Shown here in pieces: positions 1,314 to 24,379 of a stretch of DNA of 24,379 nucleotides (position 1 is its first letter; each line of letters opens with the position of its first letter). The translations under genes and the position numbers were made by a program. Source of the DNA: a virus; the IMG/VR virus record IMGVR_UViG_3300049893_000630, positions 1-24,379 of that record; one strand, given 5' to 3'. A model generated the notes under the pieces. That model searched no databases and was not told where the DNA came from. It worked only from the letters and a program-made list of their open reading frames with translations.

Positions 1314-3242
1314 TTAAACTAGAGTTCCTACGTGTTGAATCTGGAGTAATACGGAATCATCATCAACCACTCCTAAACGCACGACGTTAAAACCTGAAGG
1401 AGAGTTAGGAGGAGTATCAACAATGTCTCCCGGAGTATTTCCTAAATAAGCATAAGAGTTATGAGTTAAACCAGAAATGCCTGTTACTATTCCACTAATA
1501 GCTACAGCTCCTGAAGCGCCATCAGCAATAGCTGCTACAGTTATTCCTATAGCCCTAAACTTATTAACATTGCCGCCATCAGCTACGTCAATTTCTCCTG
1601 CTAAGTTAGTATAAACTACAGTGTAAGCAGGAATGGTACTGCCTGTGTTATTTATATAAGTCTTAGCTATATAAGTTAAAGCTGTACCATTTTCTACAGA
1701 AGTTAATATAGAACTTACGTTAGTAGGAGCTACTCCATTTTCATAAACTAAATCTCCGCTCATGTTAGCCCAGATACCTTTGTCGCCGGGATTCATTGGG
1801 TTAGTGGCTTGCGGAGTTAGTTGTAAGGCGGTAGGATCTATGACGTCTGATACGGTTATACTTCCGTTAATTACAAGTAGTTTTTCACTAACAGGGCCGT
1901 TAATAGTTAAAGGTACACCTGAAGCAATAGTTATAGTTGGGCCTGCTTCGTAAGCGTCTTGTAAGCTTCCGCCTCCTCCACCGCCAGTTAAAGTACCAGA
2001 AGCAGGAGGAATAATTCTAAATACAACTCTAGAGTTATTAGCTAAAGCTATAGGGAATTCTACTTGAGTACTACTAGTAGAAGTCCAATCAGTACCTTGG
2101 AATTTCATAATTCCATTAACGAATACTTGTAATTCGTGCGATATTTGATTATAGACTTTACCGCCAGGAAGAGTAATAGGAGTATTAGCAGCTAGACCTG
2201 AAGCGTAGTAAATTTCTTCATCATATAACTCAGCCGGGACTACAGCTTTTAGATAAGCGTCACCTAACCAAATAGAAGTAGTTGATTTTACAGTGCCAAT
2301 TTTATATTGAGCATCACCTTCGGTAGTAGAAGGAACTAAAGTAAAACTACCTGTACCGTCTGTTCTTAAGAATAAATCTTTACCTACATCAGAAGGACCA
2401 AAAGGTAGATCTGAACTACCTAGAGCTAATTCTCCTGACATAACTAAAGTAGTTGTGTCGCCAGCAGATAAAGCTACTGTAGGAGCAATACCGCCAATAA
2501 CTATGTATTTTCCGTCACTTGCGTCTAGAGCTGTAGCTTTGTAAACTCTACCAGCTACTTCTCCATCAAGCGCCCAACGTACTAAAGTAATCATGTTGGC
2601 AGTCATACTTTGTCCAACAGTTACAGTTACTTTCGTACTAGGAGCGTGTAATACTTCAATATCATTAGAATTTACTTGTACGCCGTTACCAGCGCCAACA
2701 GCTAAAGGAGAGCCTGCGCCTCCGGTCAAACCGTTCCCAGCCACTGAGGCATTAAGCTTGTCTTCATCTACCGCACCATCAGCTAACTGAGCAGTATTAA
2801 TACCTAAAGCTTTTACGTTTAAAGTATCAGCGGTTATCTCTAAAGTAGTATTATCAACGTTAACAGATAACGGGCTACCACTTCCACCGGCTAAACCATC
2901 GCCTGCAATACTAGAATTTATTTTATCTTCGTCTACAGCTCCGTCGTCTATTTTAACCGTAGTGATTCCTAAATCTTTAACTCGTAAAGTATCTACATCT
3001 ATTTCGATAGTAGAATCGTCAACATTTACAAATATATCATTACCTGTTTTTGTTAAACCAACTCCAGCAGTAATTGGTAAACTTGCGCCAGATTCTAGAT
3101 CATCTAATCGTTGAGAAATGTTTTCACTAGTAGTACCATTTTCATAGATTAATTCTCCAGCATTATTAGTCCATATACCGCAATCCGTAGGATTAGGTAA
3201 AGGATTAGAAGTTTGTTTTTGGAATCTTATACCTTTTGCCAT
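1314..3242 (-). CDS. Modular tail fibre/adhesin protein (642 residues)
   Basis: Tail fibre-type protein assembled from repeated modules. Residues about 12-45 (CGIWTNNAGELIYENG) and 480-512 (KGIWANMSGDLVYENG) are two copies of one module. Residues 57-111 and 112-166 are tandem 55-residue repeats built on GAVDEDKxN followed by (I/V)AGxGLxGGxGSPL, with a third partial copy to about 197. Residues about 345-470 contain a module with LQVFVNGIMKFQGTDW, a run of six glycines (420-425) and SLQDAYEAG. This module is shared with the C-terminus of the upstream 663-residue protein. The C-terminus (about 530-642) is Gly/Ala/Val-rich. The start is set by AGGAG seven bases upstream, and the ATG overlaps the endonuclease TAA as TAATG. 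It probably sits at the baseplate periphery and contributes to host recognition. Family-level assignment only. Confidence 0.78.
   Translation of the reverse strand: MAKGIRFQKQTSNPLPNPTDCGIWTNNAGELIYENGTTSENISQRLDDLESGASLPITAGVGLTKTGNDIFVNVDDSTIEIDVDTLRVKDLGITTVKIDDGAVDEDKINSSIAGDGLAGGSGSPLSVNVDNTTLEITADTLNVKALGINTAQLADGAVDEDKLNASVAGNGLTGGAGSPLAVGAGNGVQVNSNDIEVLHAPSTKVTVTVGQSMTANMITLVRWALDGEVAGRVYKATALDASDGKYIVIGGIAPTVALSAGDTTTLVMSGELALGSSDLPFGPSDVGKDLFLRTDGTGSFTLVPSTTEGDAQYKIGTVKSTTSIWLGDAYLKAVVPAELYDEEIYYASGLAANTPITLPGGKVYNQISHELQVFVNGIMKFQGTDWTSTSSTQVEFPIALANNSRVVFRIIPPASGTLTGGGGGGSLQDAYEAGPTITIASGVPLTINGPVSEKLLVINGSITVSDVIDPTALQLTPQATNPMNPGDKGIWANMSGDLVYENGVAPTNVSSILTSVENGTALTYIAKTYINNTGSTIPAYTVVYTNLAGEIDVADGGNVNKFRAIGITVAAIADGASGAVAISGIVTGISGLTHNSYAYLGNTPGDIVDTPPNSPSGFNVVRLGVVDDDSVLLQIQHVGTLV
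1968..1985 (-). repeat. Six-glycine codon run in fibre gene
   Basis: Residues 420-425 of the 642-residue fibre are consecutive glycines, directly before SLQDAYEAG. It matches a ten-glycine run in the same context in the neighbouring 663-residue protein and looks like a flexible hinge before the last part of the shared module. Confidence 0.85.
2652..3074 (-). repeat. Tandem 55-codon repeats (two full, one partial) in fibre gene
   Basis: Within the 642-residue fibre, residues 57-111 (3074-2910) and 112-166 (2909-2745) align over their length. The shared pattern is GVGLT/GDGLA, then FVNVDD/LSVNVDN, TLRVKDLGI/TLNVKALGI and GAVDEDKIN/GAVDEDKLN. A third copy begins VAGNGLTGGAGSPL and fades out near residue 197 (2652). 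The DNA has diverged, so this is an old protein-level duplication rather than a fresh DNA repeat. Confidence 0.8.
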
Positions 3243-3952
3243 TAGAGAACTCCTAAATTCTTTAAGGAAGTTTGATCTAATAAAATAAAAGTATATTTAT
3301 CAGAATATAGTTCCTTTGCTCTCAAAAACTTGGAATCGTCATTCCAATAATAACCTTTAATTTCATAAATTATATTATCTACAATAAAATCGGGAGTATA
3401 TCCTCCTAGAGAACCTAATGGAAGAGTAACTTCTTCGTAGGTCCAAGGAGTTTTTAACTCATCTAAATATTTTGCAAAATTAAGTTCCCAACTAGATCTA
3501 AAACAAATATCTTTATATTTAAGTTTAGAGCGTTTGGGCTTTGCAGGAGGTTTTCCAAACATTCCGTTTTTACTACCAGAAAGATCTCTTTTCTTGAGGC
3601 CTTCTAAAAAATTTTTACGATAATCAGGATTATTCTGTCTTGAAAGAACCATCTTTTTTTTAGATTCTTCTGAATGTTTTCTTCCAAAAAAAGGATTATT
3701 TTCTCCTTTTAATCTTTCTATTGCTTCTTTACTTTTTTTAAAACCTTTCCCTTTTCTACTTAAACTTATTTTTTTCTTAGTCTCTTCAGACATTCCTTTA
3801 TAAGAAAAACTTCGAGTACAAAGTTTACAAAATTTTTCATTCTTATATCTTCTTAAATTTGCGACACTAATGTTTTGCTCTTTGCCACACTTGTCGCAAA
3901 TTTTAGTGACTCTATCCTGTTTTTTTAAAATTTTCCAATCTTGAACTACCAT
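3242..3952 (-). CDS. Free-standing homing-type endonuclease, NUMOD3 + PD-(D/E)XK
   Basis: Probable site-specific DNA endonuclease that promotes its own spread between phages. In order: a CxxC pair at residues 19-22 and another at 42-45 (CDKC, CKLC; likely a zinc knuckle). Then come NUMOD3-like DNA-binding repeats at about 53-70 (GMSEETKKKISLSRKGKG), 83-104 (ENNPFFGRKHSEESKKKM) and 126-133 (GSKNGMFG). A C-terminal nuclease core follows with FRSSWE (Glu156), PDF (Asp188) and EIK (Glu197, Lys199), the usual PD-(D/E)XK layout. The protein is Lys-rich and its DNA is more AT-rich than the adjacent fibre genes, suggesting transfer. It lies with almost no spacer between two related fibre genes: its ATG follows the upstream TAA by zero bases and its TAA overlaps the downstream ATG. 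No HNH or GIY-YIG motif is seen. The cleavage site is unknown and is predicted to lie in a cognate fibre junction lacking the gene. Confidence 0.82.
   Translation of the reverse strand: MVVQDWKILKKQDRVTKICDKCGKEQNISVANLRRYKNEKFCKLCTRSFSYKGMSEETKKKISLSRKGKGFKKSKEAIERLKGENNPFFGRKHSEESKKKMVLSRQNNPDYRKNFLEGLKKRDLSGSKNGMFGKPPAKPKRSKLKYKDICFRSSWELNFAKYLDELKTPWTYEEVTLPLGSLGGYTPDFIVDNIIYEIKGYYWNDDSKFLRAKELYSDKYTFILLDQTSLKNLGVL
3250..3254 (-). promoter_or_regulatory. Ribosome-binding site of 642-residue fibre inside endonuclease gene
   Basis: AGGAG lies seven bases upstream of the fibre ATG and is part of the endonuclease codons for its final residues LGVL. Fibre translation therefore starts from inside the endonuclease reading frame. 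Confidence 0.75.
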
Positions 3953-17414: not shown

Positions 17415-20207
17415 TTAGCATCCTGTTTTATTTGCTGGAGGAGTTTTCGGAGGCTTGCTATTTTGTACTAAAGGTTTTAACGCTGCTTCGTAGACACTCT
17501 GCATTTCTCCGTAATCAATTATACCGTCTTTCAAAACCCCAGCCAAAGCTTGAGCCATGGCTTTTTCTTGTCCTGCTGTAGCATATTGTCTACTAAGATT
17601 TATCATTTCTTCATAAGTTTTAGTATTTTGTTCTTTTGTTGCCGTGATGTCGATTCCTGGTTTTGGTACGTGTGTTATACCTTTTCCTGTTTGAGAAACA
17701 CCGGGAATAGAAGTCACGGCTCCTGTGGGAGACACTACAGAAGCATCTTGAGGGTTCCAAATATTAGTACCTTGCATAGTATTATTAAGATTAGTTAAAC
17801 CTGTAATACTATCAATTAAGGACATATTACTATCTTTTAGTCCTTGTAAAGTACTGCCTAATATATTTAAACTATTTGTCATAGTCATTAAATCATTTTG
17901 CATTAAAGCTGTTTGTTGTATAGAATCTTCTACAGCTTTAGTTTGGAGTTCTACTACATTTTTATTTTCTCTAGCAGCATTTATTTGTTCTTCAATAAAA
18001 CCAGTAGCTCCTGTAGGAGTAAGAAAATTTGACAATTCTTGATCTCTTGCAGATTCTGGATCTTTTCTTTTAATTATATCAGATAAAGTATCTAGAGAAT
18101 TAATTAAACTCTCTATAGAATCTCCAGCCATATAACCTAAGGCTCCGCCAGCTACTGCGCCAACAGGTCCACCGAATAGACCGCCAGCAACTGTCCCTAA
18201 GCCTGCACCAGTCATATTATAAGCACTAGCTCCTGTTCCTAGAGCTTTGTGCATACCATAACCGCCAGCGGCTCCAGCTAGCCCTGCAGGGGCGAATCTT
18301 AAAGCAGCGGCTCCTGCTCCTTTAGCTAAGCCTCCACTTGCTAGTTTTCCTAAAGCTCCTAAAGGAAATATTTTACTTAAAGCCCAAGCACTAGCAACGC
18401 CTGCAGCCATTTTAACCATGAAATCTCTAAGACTATTTGTCTCGTCTATCCAAGCTTTAGACCATGCTCCGGGTTCATTCAAATCAAAATTAAATATTTT
18501 ACTTTTAAAGAACTCTGAATTTGCAATAGTTTTAAAACCTGCAACAATTTCTTTTATAACGTCTTGAATAAACTTAAACGTTACGATTGCCGCTTGAGAT
18601 ATTGTAGTAGCTATTATAAAAGCATCGGTCTTACCTATCTTAATTCCTTGTAGATAAGATTTAAGACTTGCGTCTATTTTCCCAATACCTTTTTCTAGAT
18701 TTCCATCTCCTAAGAAATAAGAAGATACAAGCTGATATACTCCACCTGCTATTGCTCCTACTCCTTTGATTACAGATCCTATTTCTTCAATAGTTCCTGT
18801 CATAGGTTTTAGGCTTAAAGCTATAGCTGAGATAATACCTAAGAAGCCTCCAAAACTTCCTAAGCCTGCTGCTCCTGCTAGTTTTAAAGCTAGTCTCATA
18901 GTTCCTAAAGTAGCTATTACTCCAGAAAGAGTAGAACCTACAATTAATAGATTTTTTGCCATTTCTACTAAAGGTTGATTTTTCTTAGCTCGTTCAAAGA
19001 ACTCGGTAGTTTTATCTAATAAAGCCGTGAACTTAATAACTACGTCGCCTACTGCTCGGCCTAAGAAAGAACCAAGCGTGCCGCCTAATAGTTTGAATGA
19101 AGACTTTGTTTTAGTTAGTACATCTAACAAATCTACTTCAGAGTGCATAAACTCTTTAGTTTTATTATTTAAAGCAGCTAAAATAATATTATATTTTTCT
19201 TGAGCTACTGCTGCAGGGCTCATAATTCCTGTAAACTTTTGCAGTAAGCTTAGACGTTGTTTAAGAGCAGGATCACCTGTTTTAATTAAATTTAAGTGTT
19301 CTAGGTTTGCTAAAGAGCCCGTCTTTAATGCGTCAGTTACTTGGTCAATACCATAAGATACATCAAGATTTGACATCTTACTAGCTGTTGCGGCCATAGC
19401 AATGATCTTAGCGGCTTCGTCAGAGTTCTTAGCTACGCCAAGATTTCCCATCTCTAAAGCAGCCTGCATTGCTGTTACTTCGTCTACAGCGGTAGTAGTA
19501 AACGAAGAAATCTGGGCTCCAATACCTACATGGCCAAATACTCTGCTAAATTGATTTTGTAGTCGGTCTAGCTGAGCGCCTTCTTGTAGTCTGTTTCCAA
19601 ATCCTTGAAATAGTTTAGTAAAGGTTCCTATAAAGGCAGCAGTAGTAAATAGAGTTTTATTGAATTGAGTAAAATCTGCGTCGGCCTTTTGAATAGACCT
19701 ACGTTCTTTTTCTCTGTTGTCTGCTTTTTGTTGTCTAGCTAAAGCTCTTTCTTCTCTCTCTCTTTCTTTACGTTGGGTATAAGCTTTTTTCTCGGCGTCT
19801 TGTATTTCTCTAGCTTTTTCTTTTTTCTTGTTGGCAATATCAGCTAGTAGTTGCATATCTTGAGACAACGCCATTCTTCTTCTAGACTGCTGCTCCTCGT
19901 CTAAAAATCCAAGGCGCTCTTTTTCGGATTTTCTTGCTACTCTGTCTTGCTCTTTTAGGGTTTTTTGTTTAGCTTTAAGATCGTCTCTAGCTTCTTTATC
20001 TCGTTTTTTTACTAAAGCTTTTTCGTTGGCTATAATACTTCTTTCTAAACTATCAATATTAGCTTTTCTATACTTAGTTAACTGCTGAGCAGCGCCAGTA
20101 GCTGCGTCTTGAACGCCTTTAATAGACTTCTTAAGCCCAGCTAACTTCTTAGAAGCTAGATCTCGAAGCTGAATAGTGATGTTTAAATTGTTGTTATTAT
20201 CTGCCAT
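17415..20207 (-). CDS. Tail tape measure protein
   Basis: A 930-residue protein that sets tail length and fills the tube lumen. The N-terminus (1-45) is followed by a very charged coiled coil (about 45-175, Lys/Arg/Glu/Gln-rich). Next is a tape measure-type helical domain with FGHVGIGAQISSF, EMGNLGVAKNSDEAAKIIA and LDVSYGIDQVTDALKTGSLA (about 224-300). Hydrophobic segments lie at about 417-467, 480-500 and 525-555. A Gly/Ala-rich region (601-700; GTVAGGLFGGPVGAVAGGAL) could insert in the host membrane during ejection. The C-terminal third is helical. By the common rule of about 1.5 angstrom per residue, the tail would be near 140 nm (estimate). The start lies three bases after the stop of the chaperone frameshift extension and has no good Shine-Dalgarno sequence. 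The protein ends in a lone Cys. Confidence 0.92.
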   Translation of the reverse strand: MADNNNNLNITIQLRDLASKKLAGLKKSIKGVQDAATGAAQQLTKYRKANIDSLERSIIANEKALVKKRDKEARDDLKAKQKTLKEQDRVARKSEKERLGFLDEEQQSRRRMALSQDMQLLADIANKKKEKAREIQDAEKKAYTQRKEREREERALARQQKADNREKERRSIQKADADFTQFNKTLFTTAAFIGTFTKLFQGFGNRLQEGAQLDRLQNQFSRVFGHVGIGAQISSFTTTAVDEVTAMQAALEMGNLGVAKNSDEAAKIIAMAATASKMSNLDVSYGIDQVTDALKTGSLANLEHLNLIKTGDPALKQRLSLLQKFTGIMSPAAVAQEKYNIILAALNNKTKEFMHSEVDLLDVLTKTKSSFKLLGGTLGSFLGRAVGDVVIKFTALLDKTTEFFERAKKNQPLVEMAKNLLIVGSTLSGVIATLGTMRLALKLAGAAGLGSFGGFLGIISAIALSLKPMTGTIEEIGSVIKGVGAIAGGVYQLVSSYFLGDGNLEKGIGKIDASLKSYLQGIKIGKTDAFIIATTISQAAIVTFKFIQDVIKEIVAGFKTIANSEFFKSKIFNFDLNEPGAWSKAWIDETNSLRDFMVKMAAGVASAWALSKIFPLGALGKLASGGLAKGAGAAALRFAPAGLAGAAGGYGMHKALGTGASAYNMTGAGLGTVAGGLFGGPVGAVAGGALGYMAGDSIESLINSLDTLSDIIKRKDPESARDQELSNFLTPTGATGFIEEQINAARENKNVVELQTKAVEDSIQQTALMQNDLMTMTNSLNILGSTLQGLKDSNMSLIDSITGLTNLNNTMQGTNIWNPQDASVVSPTGAVTSIPGVSQTGKGITHVPKPGIDITATKEQNTKTYEEMINLSRQYATAGQEKAMAQALAGVLKDGIIDYGEMQSVYEAALKPLVQNSKPPKTPPANKTGC

Positions 20208-20210
20208 TTT

Positions 20211-21124
20211 TTAAGAACCGTTTCTTTGATTAAGCATAAAATCTTGGTAAGATTGTTTTATTTTCTTTCTATATGACCAGCGCATATTATCTATCTCGCT
20301 AGGTTGCCATCTAAAGACTTGCCCAAAGAAGGTATAATCATCCAGAAGATCAGCTTCGTGACTTATGTACTCGAAGTTGGCGATCCCCTGGAATGGTCGA
20401 AAAAACTTGGTTCATAGCAATTCAGTTTAGACGTAAAGTCCTTCTTACATGAATTACAATTATGTTCAACCTTAGTATCAATAACGCCTTCAAGGGTTGT
20501 CTTTTCTACCATCTCTTTTAGATAGATAAGATCACTAGCAGCGATCTGTTCAATATCTTTTTCGGTAACATTATTATTATCTCCTAGCCTTTTGATAGAT
20601 ACTACAGCTAGAGAAGTAATAAGAGTGTCTTGTTTATTTGAGGTAATTTTAATAACTTCAAATAAATCTTTAAGGTATAACGGCTTTAGTTCGACTTCTT
20701 TGTTACACTTAGGAAGCAAAAAAACCTTAGGCTTAATTCTCTCTTCTAATGGAAATTCAGTCATTTCCAAAGAATTAAGATCAAGTCTAAGGTTCTTATT
20801 TATGCTATCGCAATGTGGACACTCTACTTCAAAATAGTAGCGTGGCCCGTAGGTGTTCTCCCTAATCTTGATTAGGAGAGTTTCTAAGTCTCCTGCAGGT
20901 AGTTTATAAATAGCGTCAGCTATCTTACCTTTCCAAACTAAACCTTCTTTAGTTTGTAGAGACAAAACTAGGTCTTCTAGTATTTTAGGAATATGCCCGA
21001 TATTCCCAATAACTAAATCTCTGTTTACTAGGTAATTTTGTTGCTTACCCCGTAATTCGTCAATATCGGCATAATTAAATAAATCTACGCCATCCAATAA
21101 ACCATTAGGTAACTTAATTAACAT
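20211..21124 (-). CDS. Tail assembly chaperone, -1 frameshift fusion product (304 residues)
   Basis: A -1 shift at TTTTTTC (20405-20399) joins codons 1-242 to 62 further codons ending in TAA at 20213-20211. The extension reads RPFQGIANFEYISHEADLLD, then DDYTFFGQVFRWQPSEIDNM, then RWSYRKKIKQSYQDFMLNQ. It is aromatic- and charge-rich, as expected of chaperone extensions. In the extension frame a TGA lies immediately upstream (20414-20412), so the shift must occur between there and the 0-frame TAA (20365-20363). The only slippery heptamer in that interval is the one named. Without the shift, 20208-20362 would be an odd 155-base gap in an otherwise gapless operon. The fusion would bind the tape measure and recruit tube subunits, as lambda gpGT does (family inference). 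Confidence 0.82.
20342..20405 (-). promoter_or_regulatory. Programmed -1 frameshift signal: slippery heptamer plus stem-loop
   Basis: Heptamer T TTT TTC (20405-20399) sits in the required X XXY YYZ phase of the chaperone frame. After a 7-base spacer (20398-20392), CCAGGGGATC (20391-20382) can pair with GATCTTCTGG (20351-20342). This makes a 10-bp stem with two adjacent G-U pairs. The 30-base loop contains a further CTTCG/CGAAG pairing (20376-20372 with 20358-20354). Spacer and stem lengths are in the range known for -1 frameshift stimulators. Confidence 0.8.
20363..21124 (-). CDS. Tail assembly chaperone, unshifted product (253 residues)
   Basis: Located directly upstream of the tape measure, the standard site for the chaperone pair (lambda G/GT, P2 E/E'). 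The N-terminus (KLPNGLLDGVDLFNYADIDE) and the helical core resemble T4 gp26-type baseplate-hub/chaperone proteins of the T4_baseplate family (moderate confidence). Two CxxC pairs, CPHC at 102-105 and CNSC at 223-226, look like the two halves of a split zinc ribbon. The gene starts with a strong GAGGAGA about 7 bases upstream. The last 11 codons (after FF at 241-242) are read only when ribosomes do not shift at the slippery site; that tail, DHSRGSPTSST, looks non-conserved in character. The short product would coat the nascent tape measure in excess. Confidence 0.78.
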   Translation of the reverse strand: MLIKLPNGLLDGVDLFNYADIDELRGKQQNYLVNRDLVIGNIGHIPKILEDLVLSLQTKEGLVWKGKIADAIYKLPAGDLETLLIKIRENTYGPRYYFEVECPHCDSINKNLRLDLNSLEMTEFPLEERIKPKVFLLPKCNKEVELKPLYLKDLFEVIKITSNKQDTLITSLAVVSIKRLGDNNNVTEKDIEQIAASDLIYLKEMVEKTTLEGVIDTKVEHNCNSCKKDFTSKLNCYEPSFFDHSRGSPTSST

Positions 21125-21165: not shown

Positions 21166-21774
21166 TTAGCCTATAAGAGCACTAGCTAAAGCTCCAGTTA
21201 TTCCTGGATATTTTACTTCAAAGCTCTCATAAGTTAGAGTTAACGTTTCTATACTCACTTCTCCGTCTGCACTGGCGTCAAAATCAGATCCTGGTTTGTA
21301 GCCTATAGGAAAAGCTCCATATATAAAATAAATCATCTGTACTACGCCTACTCTGTCTACTTGCTCTATTTTTACATCTCGTCTGTAAGAATACTTACCT
21401 TGAGATATATCTGTAGGAGTCTTTTTATAAGTAGGAACAGCAGAAGCAAAGTTATTTTGTACTGACTCTAAAGTAAAAATAGCACTTGGAGGAGTTTTAA
21501 AAGCCTCTTCATTTGTTACTAGATCAAACATGCCTGTAGCCCATTTATTAAAGCTAGTATCGTTTGTTAAACCTCTAGCTAATATAATAGGTTTATATTC
21601 TATGCTTTCTACAATCTGCCTAGGAGTTAAATGAGAACCTCCTTCAGCGTATTTTCTTGTAGTAACAGAATATTCAGGAGTTGAACAACTTGAAAAGCCT
21701 GCTCTAGTAAAGCCTTCAATACTTACCGTCCAACGGTATCTGTCATAAATATCAGCAGTTCCTGATCTAGCCAT
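21166..21774 (-). CDS. Tail tube paralogue 5 (gp19-type, divergent)
   Basis: A 202-residue member of the tube family and the last of five tandem copies, next to the chaperone gene. It keeps the shared N-terminal MAR plus YRWTVS, IILARGLTNDTSFNKWA, SYRRDVKIEQVDR, YGAFPIGYKPGSDFDASADG and the end strand LTLTYESFEVKYPG. It has lost the QMPK and YREG motifs of copies 1-3 and has a longer middle (about 90-130). Divergence and position suggest a specialised tube-fold part, such as the baseplate-proximal tube ring or a hub adaptor (compare T4 gp54/gp48 or Afp5), rather than the bulk tube. The ribosome-binding site AGGAATAACTT precedes the ATG. Confidence 0.75.
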   Translation of the reverse strand: MARSGTADIYDRYRWTVSIEGFTRAGFSSCSTPEYSVTTRKYAEGGSHLTPRQIVESIEYKPIILARGLTNDTSFNKWATGMFDLVTNEEAFKTPPSAIFTLESVQNNFASAVPTYKKTPTDISQGKYSYRRDVKIEQVDRVGVVQMIYFIYGAFPIGYKPGSDFDASADGEVSIETLTLTYESFEVKYPGITGALASALIG

Positions 21775-21783
21775 AAGTTATTC

Positions 21784-22422
21784 CTAAAGAATAGCCGCTA
21801 AAGCTGCCTTAGCGAATTCGCTTTCTATTTGATTGTTAATATCACTCTGAGCTTCATTTTCCGTAGGTTTGTTAGACTCTATCATAGTCTCAAAGGATAT
21901 AGTTAATTCTTCTACTAGTTTCTCGTCGCTCTTTGCGTCTAAATCACTGCCCGGTTTATAGCCAGACACAATACAGTCGTAAAAGAACCACATTTTAATA
22001 GAGTTATTTAATCTGTCTACTACTGATACTATTAGATCTCGTCTATAGTCTTTGTCTTGAGCCGGGACTACTGCTAGTTCTGAGAAGCCTTGAGCTATAG
22101 CTGCTAATGGAGAACTAATGCCAAGAATTACGTTATTAGTAGAGTTACACCATTTATATAAGTCTTGACTAGTAGTAACTCCTCTTTTTAGTACGAGGTC
22201 GTCGTAGCGAACTAGACCTGCTTGTTTTCTAAAATTAGGAGTATTTATATTTTCTCTGTAGTTAATAGTTCCGATTGTAACTTTTGGTATTACTACTTCG
22301 CTAAATCCGGCTCTTTGAAATTCAGGTTCTGAAAAATTTAAAATAGGAAAAGCTGCTGTAGTTAATACAGATACTCTAAATCTAAATTTTTCTACTGTGT
22401 CTGAACTTGATGGTCTAGCCAC
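21784..22422 (-). CDS. Tail tube paralogue 4 (gp19-type, divergent, GTG start)
   Basis: A 212-residue tube-family protein. It shares EKFRFRVS, AGFSEVVIPK, INYREN, DDLVLKRGVTTSQDLYKWCN, YRRDLIVSVVDR and YKPGSDLDAKSD with its neighbours, but the end strand is altered (LTISFETMIES). It carries an extra helical, Asn/Glu/Ala-rich C-terminus of about 25 residues. It starts at GTG (22422-22420), with AAAGG seven bases upstream. Alignment with the MAR start of all other copies supports this choice. It is the only gene here with a TAG stop. Likely a tube-fold accessory or adaptor rather than the main tube subunit. Confidence 0.75.
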   Translation of the reverse strand: MARPSSSDTVEKFRFRVSVLTTAAFPILNFSEPEFQRAGFSEVVIPKVTIGTINYRENINTPNFRKQAGLVRYDDLVLKRGVTTSQDLYKWCNSTNNVILGISSPLAAIAQGFSELAVVPAQDKDYRRDLIVSVVDRLNNSIKMWFFYDCIVSGYKPGSDLDAKSDEKLVEELTISFETMIESNKPTENEAQSDINNQIESEFAKAALAAIL

Positions 22423-22435
22423 GGCTTAACCTTTA

Positions 22436-23023
22436 TTAAAATATAGGAATACCTGTTGAGGAATTTACTGCAAGTTCTTTAAAGGACTCGTAAGCTAAAG
22501 TAAGGGAGGCTATAGACTTAGAATCGTCTGCAGAAGCATCTAGATCTGAACCGGGAGTAAACTGAACAGGAAAAGCATTGTAAATAATCCAAGCTTTAGT
22601 AGTCTTACCTGTCCTATCGGCCATGGAGATAACTAAATCTTTTCTAACATATTCCACTTCAGTTTGAGGTTTAAAAGCGTTTCCTGGGTCATTATAATTA
22701 AAGGCTGCGTCAGTAGCTTGTCCTGAATGTATAGTTTTTGCCCAAAAATAAAACCAACCCCAGGACTCTGCTACAACTCCTCTAGAAAGAATTATATCTT
22801 CTGTTGTAGATAAACCTGGAGACAAAGAGCTAACATTTAATAAATTATCGCCTTCTCTATAATTTATTTTGTTAGTAGATAATTTAGGCATTTGTACAGT
22901 ATTAAAACCTACTAAAGTGTCTAAGTTATGTATAATAGTAACATCTTGGGTTACAGTAGTAGAATATTGTTGTACTTTAAATCTAAATTTTTCTAGAGGA
23001 TCGCCGACGGATGTACGGGCCAT
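22436..23023 (-). CDS. Tail tube paralogue 3 (gp19-type)
   Basis: A 195-residue tube-family protein close in sequence to copies 1 and 2. It has DPLEKFRFKVQ, VGFNTVQMPK, NKINYREG, GLSTTEDIILSRGV, YNAFPVQFTPGSDLDASADD and KSIASLTLAYESFKELAV. An N-terminal insertion of about 10 residues after the first strand (TVTQDVTIIHN) sets it apart from copy 2. The ATG lies one base after the TAA of copy 2, and its ribosome-binding site (GAAGAGG) is inside that gene. It could be part of the inner tube, either mixed with copies 1 and 2 or as a separate ring. Confidence 0.83.
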   Translation of the reverse strand: MARTSVGDPLEKFRFKVQQYSTTVTQDVTIIHNLDTLVGFNTVQMPKLSTNKINYREGDNLLNVSSLSPGLSTTEDIILSRGVVAESWGWFYFWAKTIHSGQATDAAFNYNDPGNAFKPQTEVEYVRKDLVISMADRTGKTTKAWIIYNAFPVQFTPGSDLDASADDSKSIASLTLAYESFKELAVNSSTGIPIF

Positions 23024-23024
23024 A

Positions 23025-23567
23025 TTATTTTACCTCTTCAAAATCATCGTAAGATAGAGTGAGAGAAGCTATTGATTTAGAATCATCAGCTGCGGCGTCT
23101 AAATCAGAACCAGCAGTAAATTGAATAGGAAAAGCATTATACAATTTCCACTCTTTCAATACCTCTCCTGTTCTACTTATCATCTGAATAGTTACGTCTC
23201 GTCTATAACGCTCTCTTGAGGCTGTAGTGTTATTTGTAGCTGCTGGAGAATAGGTTTCTCCAGGCTTTCCTTTTCTATCTGAGCCGTCATGTACATTCTT
23301 TGCCCATTTATAGAAATCATTTATACCTAAAGAAAGTCCTCTAGCTAAAACAATATCTTCCATAGTAGAGATACCAGCAGAATTAAACTGTATATCAGTA
23401 TCAATTCCTTCTCTATAAGTTATTTTAGAAGTGTTTCTTTTTGGCATTTGACAGGCTTGAAACCCTGCTCTGCTTGATGCTGGAGTATTAACTCCGTCTC
23501 CTTCAGCAGGCCAGCTCACTCTAAATCTAAACTTATCTATAGGATCTTTATCCATTGTCCTAGCCAT
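23025..23567 (-). CDS. Tail tube paralogue 2 (gp19-type)
   Basis: The shortest copy, 180 residues and near the size of T4 gp19. Motifs are DPIDKFRFRVSW, AGFQACQMPKRNTSKITYRE, GISTMEDIVLARGL, YRRDVTIQMISRTGEV, KLYNAFPIQFTAGSDLDAAA and SKSIASLTLSYDDFEEVK. The start has GGGAG about 5 bases upstream. It ends straight after the conserved last strand, without the tail extension seen in the other copies, which makes it a good candidate for the bulk tube subunit. Tube proteins form stacked hexamers around the tape measure. Confidence 0.85.
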   Translation of the reverse strand: MARTMDKDPIDKFRFRVSWPAEGDGVNTPASSRAGFQACQMPKRNTSKITYREGIDTDIQFNSAGISTMEDIVLARGLSLGINDFYKWAKNVHDGSDRKGKPGETYSPAATNNTTASRERYRRDVTIQMISRTGEVLKEWKLYNAFPIQFTAGSDLDAAADDSKSIASLTLSYDDFEEVK

Positions 23568-23580
23568 AAAAACTCCCTAA

Positions 23581-24156
23581 TTATAGAGGCGTAGAAGTAG
23601 GTTCTGAACCAATAGTAGGTACTGCTAGTTCTTGGAAATCTTCATAAGCTAACGTGATTGATTCTAGAGATTTCTCCCCGTCTTCTGAACTGTTAAGGTC
23701 AGCACCAGGATTGAAAGCTACAGGAAAAGCATTATACATACGCCACGCACGAGCAATATTACCTTCACGATCGAGCATTTTAATAGTAACTTCTGCACGA
23801 TAGTTACCAGAGCCGTGAGTAGCTGTGGTGCCCGTGTTGTGAACAGAAATACCTGTAGTAGTCGGGTGGACTTTTTTAGCCCAAGCTAGGAAGTCGTTAG
23901 CAGCTGCGCCGTCAGTAGCCATTAAGCCACGACTCATAACTACATCTTCCATAGAACTTAAACCAGCGGAAACAGCACTAATATCAGGATCTCCGCCTTC
24001 ACGATAATTCATTTTGTTAGTAGTGCGCTTAGGCATTTGTACATCATGAAAACCTAAACGAACTGCTGCTTTTGAACCAGTAGGTCCATCAGGTAGTTTA
24101 AAATCTACTAGAAACCTAAATTTTTCCATTGGATCATTTGCTGCGACTCTTGCCAT
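23581..24156 (-). CDS. Tail tube paralogue 1 (gp19-type)
   Basis: A 191-residue tube-family protein, first of the five. It shows NDPMEKFRFLVDF, LGFHDVQMPKRTTNKMNYRE, GLSSMEDVVMSRGL, YRAEVTIKMLDREGN and MYNAFPVAFNPGADLNSSED, followed by SITLAYEDFQELAVP. I chose the ATG at 24156 because MAR aligns with the starts of the other four copies and GGAGAG lies 8 bases upstream. A longer in-frame start at 24258 would read through the HNH gene in the wrong frame and is rejected. The C-terminal tail is Pro/Thr/Ser-rich. Confidence 0.85.
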   Translation of the reverse strand: MARVAANDPMEKFRFLVDFKLPDGPTGSKAAVRLGFHDVQMPKRTTNKMNYREGGDPDISAVSAGLSSMEDVVMSRGLMATDGAAANDFLAWAKKVHPTTTGISVHNTGTTATHGSGNYRAEVTIKMLDREGNIARAWRMYNAFPVAFNPGADLNSSEDGEKSLESITLAYEDFQELAVPTIGSEPTSTPL

Positions 24157-24157
24157 T

Positions 24158-24379
24158 TTATATACTCTCCATGGTAATAGTTTTATTTTGTAAACGTTCA
24201 AGAAATATAAAATATTCTTCTTTAGTTTTTTTACCTTTTCTACTGTTACAAGTAGCACAAGCTAAAGTTATATTTTCTTTTGTATGTGTTCCGTTTCTTG
24301 CTAAAGGTATTATATGTTCTATAGTAAGATTTTCCGTATTATTACAATATTCACATTTATTTTTATGTTTGAATAAATA
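24158..24379 (-). CDS. HNH endonuclease, C-terminal 73 residues (5' end beyond window)
   Basis: Open frame of 73 codons entering from the right edge and ending in TAA at 24160-24158, one base before the tube gene ATG. It shows a complete HNH core: CEYC (residues 9-12), the catalytic-type EHIIPLARNG (His22), the KEN (Asn36) that follows, and CATCNSRKG (41-49). The two CxxC pairs probably bind zinc. The DNA is very AT-rich and Lys/Asn-rich compared with the tube genes. A lone HNH gene wedged between structural genes usually means a free-standing homing endonuclease. A terminase-associated HNH is less likely here, far from packaging genes. The N-terminus and any DNA-binding modules are outside the window. 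Confidence 0.82.
   Translation of the reverse strand, partial: YLFKHKNKCEYCNNTENLTIEHIIPLARNGTHTKENITLACATCNSRKGKKTKEEYFIFLERLQNKTITMESI
24165..24170 (-). promoter_or_regulatory. Ribosome-binding site of tube gene 1 inside HNH gene
   Basis: GGAGAG, 8 bases before the tube ATG, forms part of the last codons (MES) of the HNH endonuclease. It fixes the tube start at 24156. Confidence 0.75.

Follow-up and report, generated by a model that had tools for sequence, protein, structure and literature searches.

A gp26-type phage gene with a probable programmed -1 frameshift into a putative gp51-type extension

A single minus-strand gene of a viral sequence from IMG/VR (record IMGVR_UViG_3300049893_000630; the 24,379 nucleotides analysed are hereafter called the window) very probably yields both a short and a long hub or tail chaperone by -1 frameshifting. 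The gene resembles gene 26 of phage T4, and the arrangement is like that of lambda G/GT, whereas T4 uses two genes. G and GT of lambda are described as tail assembly chaperones (Levin et al. 1993; Xu et al. 2004, as cited in PMC5009743), and the conservation of G-T frameshifting is stated to be wide among other long-tailed phages, "except T4" (Atkins et al. 2016, PMC5009743). An earlier note on this DNA had proposed a -1 programmed frameshift in the gp26-like chaperone gene, and at the sequence level homologues, the downstream RNA structure and third-position substitutions all argue for it. The note had also presented the signal as a new point; the signal is present, but it is not peculiar to the window and recurs across T4-related and jumbo phages. 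No report of gp26/gp51 frameshifting was found in a search of open-access papers, and it may have been described elsewhere.

The zero-frame product of 253 amino acids matched PF12322 (T4_baseplate) in a Pfam profile search with an expectation value (E) of 2.3e-9 and 37.7 bits, compared with a curated cut-off of 24.5, and matched phrog_150 ("baseplate hub") in a PHROG profile search with an E of 7.2e-8. Together with two CxxC pairs, these matches bear out the zinc-ribbon, gp26-like first half described before. Near the end of the gene, the codons CCA AGT TTT TTC GAC hold the heptamer T_TTT_TTC in the phase that a -1 slip requires, which conforms to the in-phase X_XXY_YYZ pattern of programmed -1 frameshift sites that was used for scanning. 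Of 7,552 codon positions in the window, this is the only one at which T_TTT_TTC occurs in phase. After a spacer of 7 nucleotides, inside the range of 5-9 nucleotides expected for a stimulatory structure, follows a 10-base-pair stem with an inner stem of 5 base pairs. The minimum free energy of this stem-loop, -21.3 kcal/mol, lies below that of all 200 dinucleotide shuffles (z-score -3.3 to -4.4), and no GAGGG-type Shine-Dalgarno-like stimulator was found near the heptamer. The -1 frame is closed by a TGA just upstream of the heptamer and then runs open for 62 codons, the earliest ATG, GTG or TTG being codon 39; therefore, initiation at a usual start codon within the extension could not produce it in full. 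The heptamer, spacer and nested stems, as well as an extension frame reachable only by shifting, are thus all present as the earlier note had described, here placed on the minus strand. Considering that any X_XXY_YYZ has a chance expectation of 0.12 in the 16-codon overlap (0.002 for T_TTT_TTC itself), the heptamer taken alone is modest evidence, and its weight comes from the combination of elements and from the relatives.

Relatives were traced by tblastn in successive rounds, starting from the window protein and continuing with its matches. The first tier comprised Bacillus phage SP-15, Streptococcus phage GXN1, Listeria phage LIS04, uncultured huge phages and one IMG/VR contig, and the second tier, reached via those matches, brought in jumbo phages and T4-related phages. 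An open -1 frame together with T_TTT_TTC or T_TTT_TTT was found at the 3' end of gp26 in KVP40, Bellamy, C48C1, F86, V1.081, V2.275, PBECO4, Atu_ph07, Phosso, PA5oct, XacN1, RAS14, LR756511 and the IMG/VR contigs L010 and L017. The same design is present in Pseudomonas phage pf16, Aeromonas phage 65 and Prochlorococcus phage P-SSM7, and was not present at the gp26 3' end of Vibrio phage D506. The site and both frames are therefore conserved in homologues, all of them distant ones.

Two larger sets extend this survey. A query with Bellamy gp26 gave 80 IMG/VR loci of the cyanophage type (L033-L112; 70 distinct tails), and in all 80 T_TTT_TTC stands exactly two codons ahead of the gp26 stop with the -1 frame open. 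The two Phe codons at the site are always TTT-TTC, and the codon preceding them always ends in T (TCT in 41 loci, AGT in 37, GGT in 2). In the rest of these genes a final T is found in 61% of Ser codons, and elsewhere in open reading frames of at least 150 codons from the same loci only about 3% of the codon triplets ending in Phe-Phe read T_TTT_TTC (12/355). Relatives of the cyanophage-type gp26 occur in 724 GenBank phage records, the heptamer having been checked in a sample only. As a separate observation, most of these loci carry GAGGG about 9 nucleotides upstream of the heptamer; it resembles an internal Shine-Dalgarno stimulator, and the protein motif LEGL may account for it. The second set, 80 loci obtained with a jumbo-phage alignment, displayed T_TTT_TTC in 68 and A_AAT_TTT, also a canonical heptamer, in the other 12, with the -1 frame open in all. 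The swap of one canonical heptamer for another while the protein changes from Phe-Phe to Asn-Phe points to selection on slipperiness, as judged from these sequences.

The 12 loci with A_AAT_TTT also bear on two explanations that do without a slipping ribosome. Polymerase slippage on the six consecutive Ts would give the same protein pair, with the frame change arising in transcription; however, such a run is short for efficient polymerase slippage, these loci keep the tandem codon-slip pattern without any run of six Ts, and the RNA structure lies at the distance of a ribosomal stimulator, which makes this origin very improbable. A sequencing or assembly error in the T run could likewise have split a true in-frame long form like T4 gp51, since homopolymers are error-prone and the window is a 24-kb IMG/VR-type virus record. 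Yet the same split occurs at the same T run in the isolates KVP40, Bellamy, PBECO4, Atu_ph07, P-SSM7 and Aeromonas phage 65, and the A_AAT_TTT loci are split without such a run, so that an error is scarcely credible.

The RNA structure is not confined to the window. When 55 nucleotides starting 5 nucleotides 3' of the heptamer were folded, the mean z-score was -1.74 for cyanophage-type loci (n=52) and -1.63 for jumbo loci (n=60), compared with values between +0.56 and -0.37 at eight other offsets of the same loci; the structure signal in the relatives is restricted to the position of a frameshift stimulator. Coding constraint on the -1 frame is seen in one pair of relatives, L010 and L017, whose extensions differ at 26 positions, 20 of them third positions of the -1 frame. 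Read in that frame, the differences amount to 16 synonymous and 6 non-synonymous codons, and the other two frames give stops and mostly non-synonymous change.

The strongest competitor of frameshifting treats the extension as a small gene in its own right, gp51, translated either by re-initiation past the gp26 stop or from a start codon within it. GenBank annotates such a gp51 in KVP40, Bellamy, F86, P-SSM7 and others, the KVP40 junction reads ATAATG, an ATG lies among the first nine -1 codons in 75 of the 77 distinct cyanophage-type extensions, and Streptomyces phages, which carry TTT_C at the site too, have a TTG-started open reading frame about 30 nucleotides past the stop. Contrarily, no start codon occurs in the first 38 codons of the window extension, in the first 28 of L010, in the first 20 of 24 of the 68 distinct jumbo-set extensions, or anywhere in the 73-codon extension of PA5oct; because ATG, GTG and TTG are all missing there, the full extension in the start-less relatives is hard to read except by frameshifting. 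Re-initiation also leaves unexplained the in-phase heptamer, its exchange for another canonical heptamer, the T-ending preceding codon and the adjoining RNA structure. A separate gene is, on balance, unlikely.

Besides the early ATG of KVP40 and of the cyanophage-type extensions, which would also permit re-initiation, several further points weigh against the frameshift reading. The loci within each large set are related, so the counts of 80/80 and of 68 plus 12 of 80, in which the heptamer and the open extension frame were kept as the earlier note had asked of homologues, are not counts of independent events. Both sets were retrieved by gp26 queries rather than by the heptamer, although one jumbo-set peptide pattern covered the Phe-Phe site. 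The codon usage of the window extension scores -8 bits, higher than 92% of out-of-frame stretches and lower than 99% of in-frame ones. Its match to a home-made gp51-type profile is weak (106 of 4,858 shuffles scored equal or better, p about 0.02), and its likeness to the P2 E' extension was reached by 82 of 60,000 shuffles and is outscored by another open reading frame of the window. This latter similarity is pairwise only, no match to Phage_P2_GpE (PF06528) being found at E up to 10. Scanned by itself against Pfam and PHROG, the extension gave no significant family and no phrog_634 match, and tblastn of the extension against phages gave no match. No usable close relative of the window was found with gp26, gp25-like and tail-tube queries in IMG/VR or with gp26 in genome contigs; a candidate relative from these searches, L006, proved spurious. 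The extension can be assigned to the gp51-type family by position and design, and weakly by sequence homology.

Some of these features would also suit a window in which heptamer and open -1 frame coincide by chance, as an ancestral leftover, and only the short form is made. Poor codon usage and weak homology fit such a remnant, as do the 12% chance of some X_XXY_YYZ site and a zero-frame stop that lies 12 codons past the heptamer, compared with 2 in most relatives. However, the chance of the exact T_TTT_TTC is 0.2%, a strong stem stands at the right distance, the 62 open codons terminate precisely at the next ATG, and the design is shared by many distant relatives. A mere remnant is accordingly quite improbable.

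The relationship to T4 becomes clear from the domain make-up of its two proteins. Residues 1-201 of T4 gp51 match PF12322 (3.9e-52) and residues 147-246 match phrog_634 (1.2e-23); because both families match in gp51, this protein is a gp26-type domain plus extension in one frame. T4 gp26 is PF12322 throughout and nothing else, and the two proteins align with each other at an E of 2e-6. The small open reading frames of KVP40 and Bellamy match phrog_634 as well (3e-20 and 2e-25), and the -1 frame in KVP40 and cyanophages is annotated as a separate gene, gp51, "baseplate hub assembly catalyst". Genes 26 and 51 of T4 are separate and oppositely oriented, and the 3' end of gene 26 (GAG TTC TTT GAG TTA CTA TAA) has Phe-Phe but neither the heptamer nor an open extension. 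By its position, the window extension is the counterpart of the C-terminal region of gp51 in T4. Relatives of T4 gp51 occur in 1,339 GenBank phage records, nearly all over its full length, and among solved structures neither T4 gp51 nor the window protein had a convincing sequence relative.

Both gp26 and gp51 of T4 are given as hub assembly chaperones, gp51 being described as essential and of unknown function and reported to be absent from the particle (PMC3004832), and gp51 of cyanophages and vibriophages is described as being without the first ~200 amino acids of T4 gp51 (Sullivan et al. 2010, PMC3037559). That short gp51 is the identical small open reading frame discussed here; the main text of the paper does not mention frameshifting, whereas in the scheme proposed here gp26 would provide the missing ~200 residues through the frameshift. 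We lean towards a history in which the gp26-gp51 frameshift is the usual and probably ancestral state of contractile phages of the T4-related and jumbo kinds. In T4 and the phages closest to it a duplicated gene would have taken its place, with gp26 as the short form and gp51 as the in-frame long form, the G and GT of T4, and the frameshift would have been lost by dividing the two products between two genes. If this holds true, the T4 group represents a derived state and not an exception to tail-chaperone frameshifting (compare PMC5009743), gp51, described as essential with unknown function (PMC3004832), acquires a testable role, the cyanophage and vibriophage gp51 lacking its first ~200 residues (PMC3037559) is accounted for, and the annotation of many phages needs correction.

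Based on these comparisons, a mechanism can be proposed for the window. The majority of ribosomes would end at the zero-frame stop and release the gp26-type protein of 253 residues with PF12322 and two CxxC pairs. A minority would slip back by one base on T_TTT_TTC, aided by the stem 7 nucleotides downstream, and extend the chain by 62 residues, which yields a long form of 304 amino acids. By analogy with lambda gpG and gpGT, many short and few long copies may cover the tape measure in the course of assembly, and tube or hub subunits may be recruited by the extension of the long form.

Likeness to known systems is partial in each case. As in lambda G/GT, an abundant short form and a rare long form would be expected, but the first half in the window is PF12322, the T4 gp26 family, rather than gpG, and the window heptamer is T_TTT_TTC. 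P2 E/E+E' shares an annotated -1 frameshift at T_TTT_TTG ahead of the tape measure gene T, and the P2 extension has IFHWPPSELYPM, which resembles VFRWQPSEIDNM of the window; gpE, however, has only 91 amino acids, and the P2 extension belongs to PF06528 (2.1e-22), unlike that of the window. T4 gp26/gp51 shares PF12322 in both proteins and the extension domain at the gp51 C-terminus, and differs in having two oppositely oriented genes with neither heptamer nor open extension at the end of gp26. The two-gene tail chaperone of 0305phi8-36 has been proposed to recapitulate G and GT with no need of a frameshift (PMC2147016), an arrangement suggested here for T4 as well, and is likened by gene arrangement.

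Coordinates of the window features and of the +1 extensions of relatives are collected in Table 1. The extension was said to end three bases ahead of the tape measure ATG; its coordinates agree with this, and the identity of the tape measure is presumptive. The 930-amino-acid protein encoded there gave no Pfam or PHROG family match, and in SP-15, LIS04 and immuto the gene at the equivalent position carries a tape measure annotation. The labels "chaperone" and "tape measure" are accordingly provisional ones, taken from T4, gene order and length. Since the start of the presumed tape measure gene is without a clear Shine-Dalgarno sequence, whereas most window genes have one, its translation may, as a conjecture, be coupled to the extension stop; in SP-15, unlike the window, a strong Shine-Dalgarno sequence precedes the corresponding start.

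Table 1. Positions of the features in the window and of the +1 extensions in loci of relatives
Feature	Position	Strand	Remarks
gp26-like gene, zero frame (short chaperone form)	20363..21124	minus	253 amino acids; PF12322; phrog_150; two CxxC pairs; GAGGAG Shine-Dalgarno sequence
TGA closing the -1 frame upstream of the heptamer	20412..20414	minus	
Slippery heptamer T_TTT_TTC	20405-20399	minus	in phase with gp26-like frame; codon context CCA AGT TTT TTC GAC
Spacer GACCATT	20398-20392	minus	7 nucleotides
Stem-loop	20342..20391	minus	outer 10 and inner 5 base pairs
Outer stem	20391-20382 with 20351-20342	minus	CCAGGGGATC pairs with GATCTTCTGG; 10 base pairs including two G-U pairs
Inner stem	20376-20372 with 20358-20354	minus	CTTCG pairs with CGAAG; 5 base pairs
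TAA stop, zero frame	20363..20365	minus	
-1 frame extension	20214..20399	minus	62 codons, RPFQGIANFEYISHEADLLDDYTFFGQVFRWQPSEIDNMRWSYRKKIKQSYQDFMLNQRNGS; long form of 304 amino acids when joined after F242
TAA stop of extension frame	20211..20213	minus	3 nucleotides ahead of ATG at 20207
Presumed tape measure gene	17415..20207	minus	930 amino acids; presumed from position and length only
+1 extension, SP-15	L002 4488-4754		
+1 extension, GXN1	L003 4455-4820		
+1 extension, LIS04	L007 3638-3946		
+1 extension, LR756508	L009 3710-4012		
+1 extension, immuto	L025 2626-2931		
+1 extension, Mel-JY01	L027 2668-2958		

The six relatives at the foot of Table 1 form a class of their own with a +1 extension, which is found beside a TTT_C or TTT_TTT tract that coincides with the conserved Phe-Phe or adjoins it. 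It could be read after the Phe tRNA slips by +1, with a -2 slip as the alternative, and the presence of lineages with -1 and with +1 extensions suggests that the direction of the shift may have switched between them.

Elsewhere in the window, the gp19 tail-tube family (PF06841, E 6e-20 to 3e-24) is represented by five paralogues in tandem at positions 21166-24258 of the minus strand. A fragment of an HNH endonuclease (PF01844, 4e-14; 24158-24379, minus strand), cut by the contig end, adjoins this cluster, and a NUMOD3-type endonuclease (PF07460, 2e-12; 3242-3952, minus strand), likely a mobile nuclease, lies between two large tail genes.
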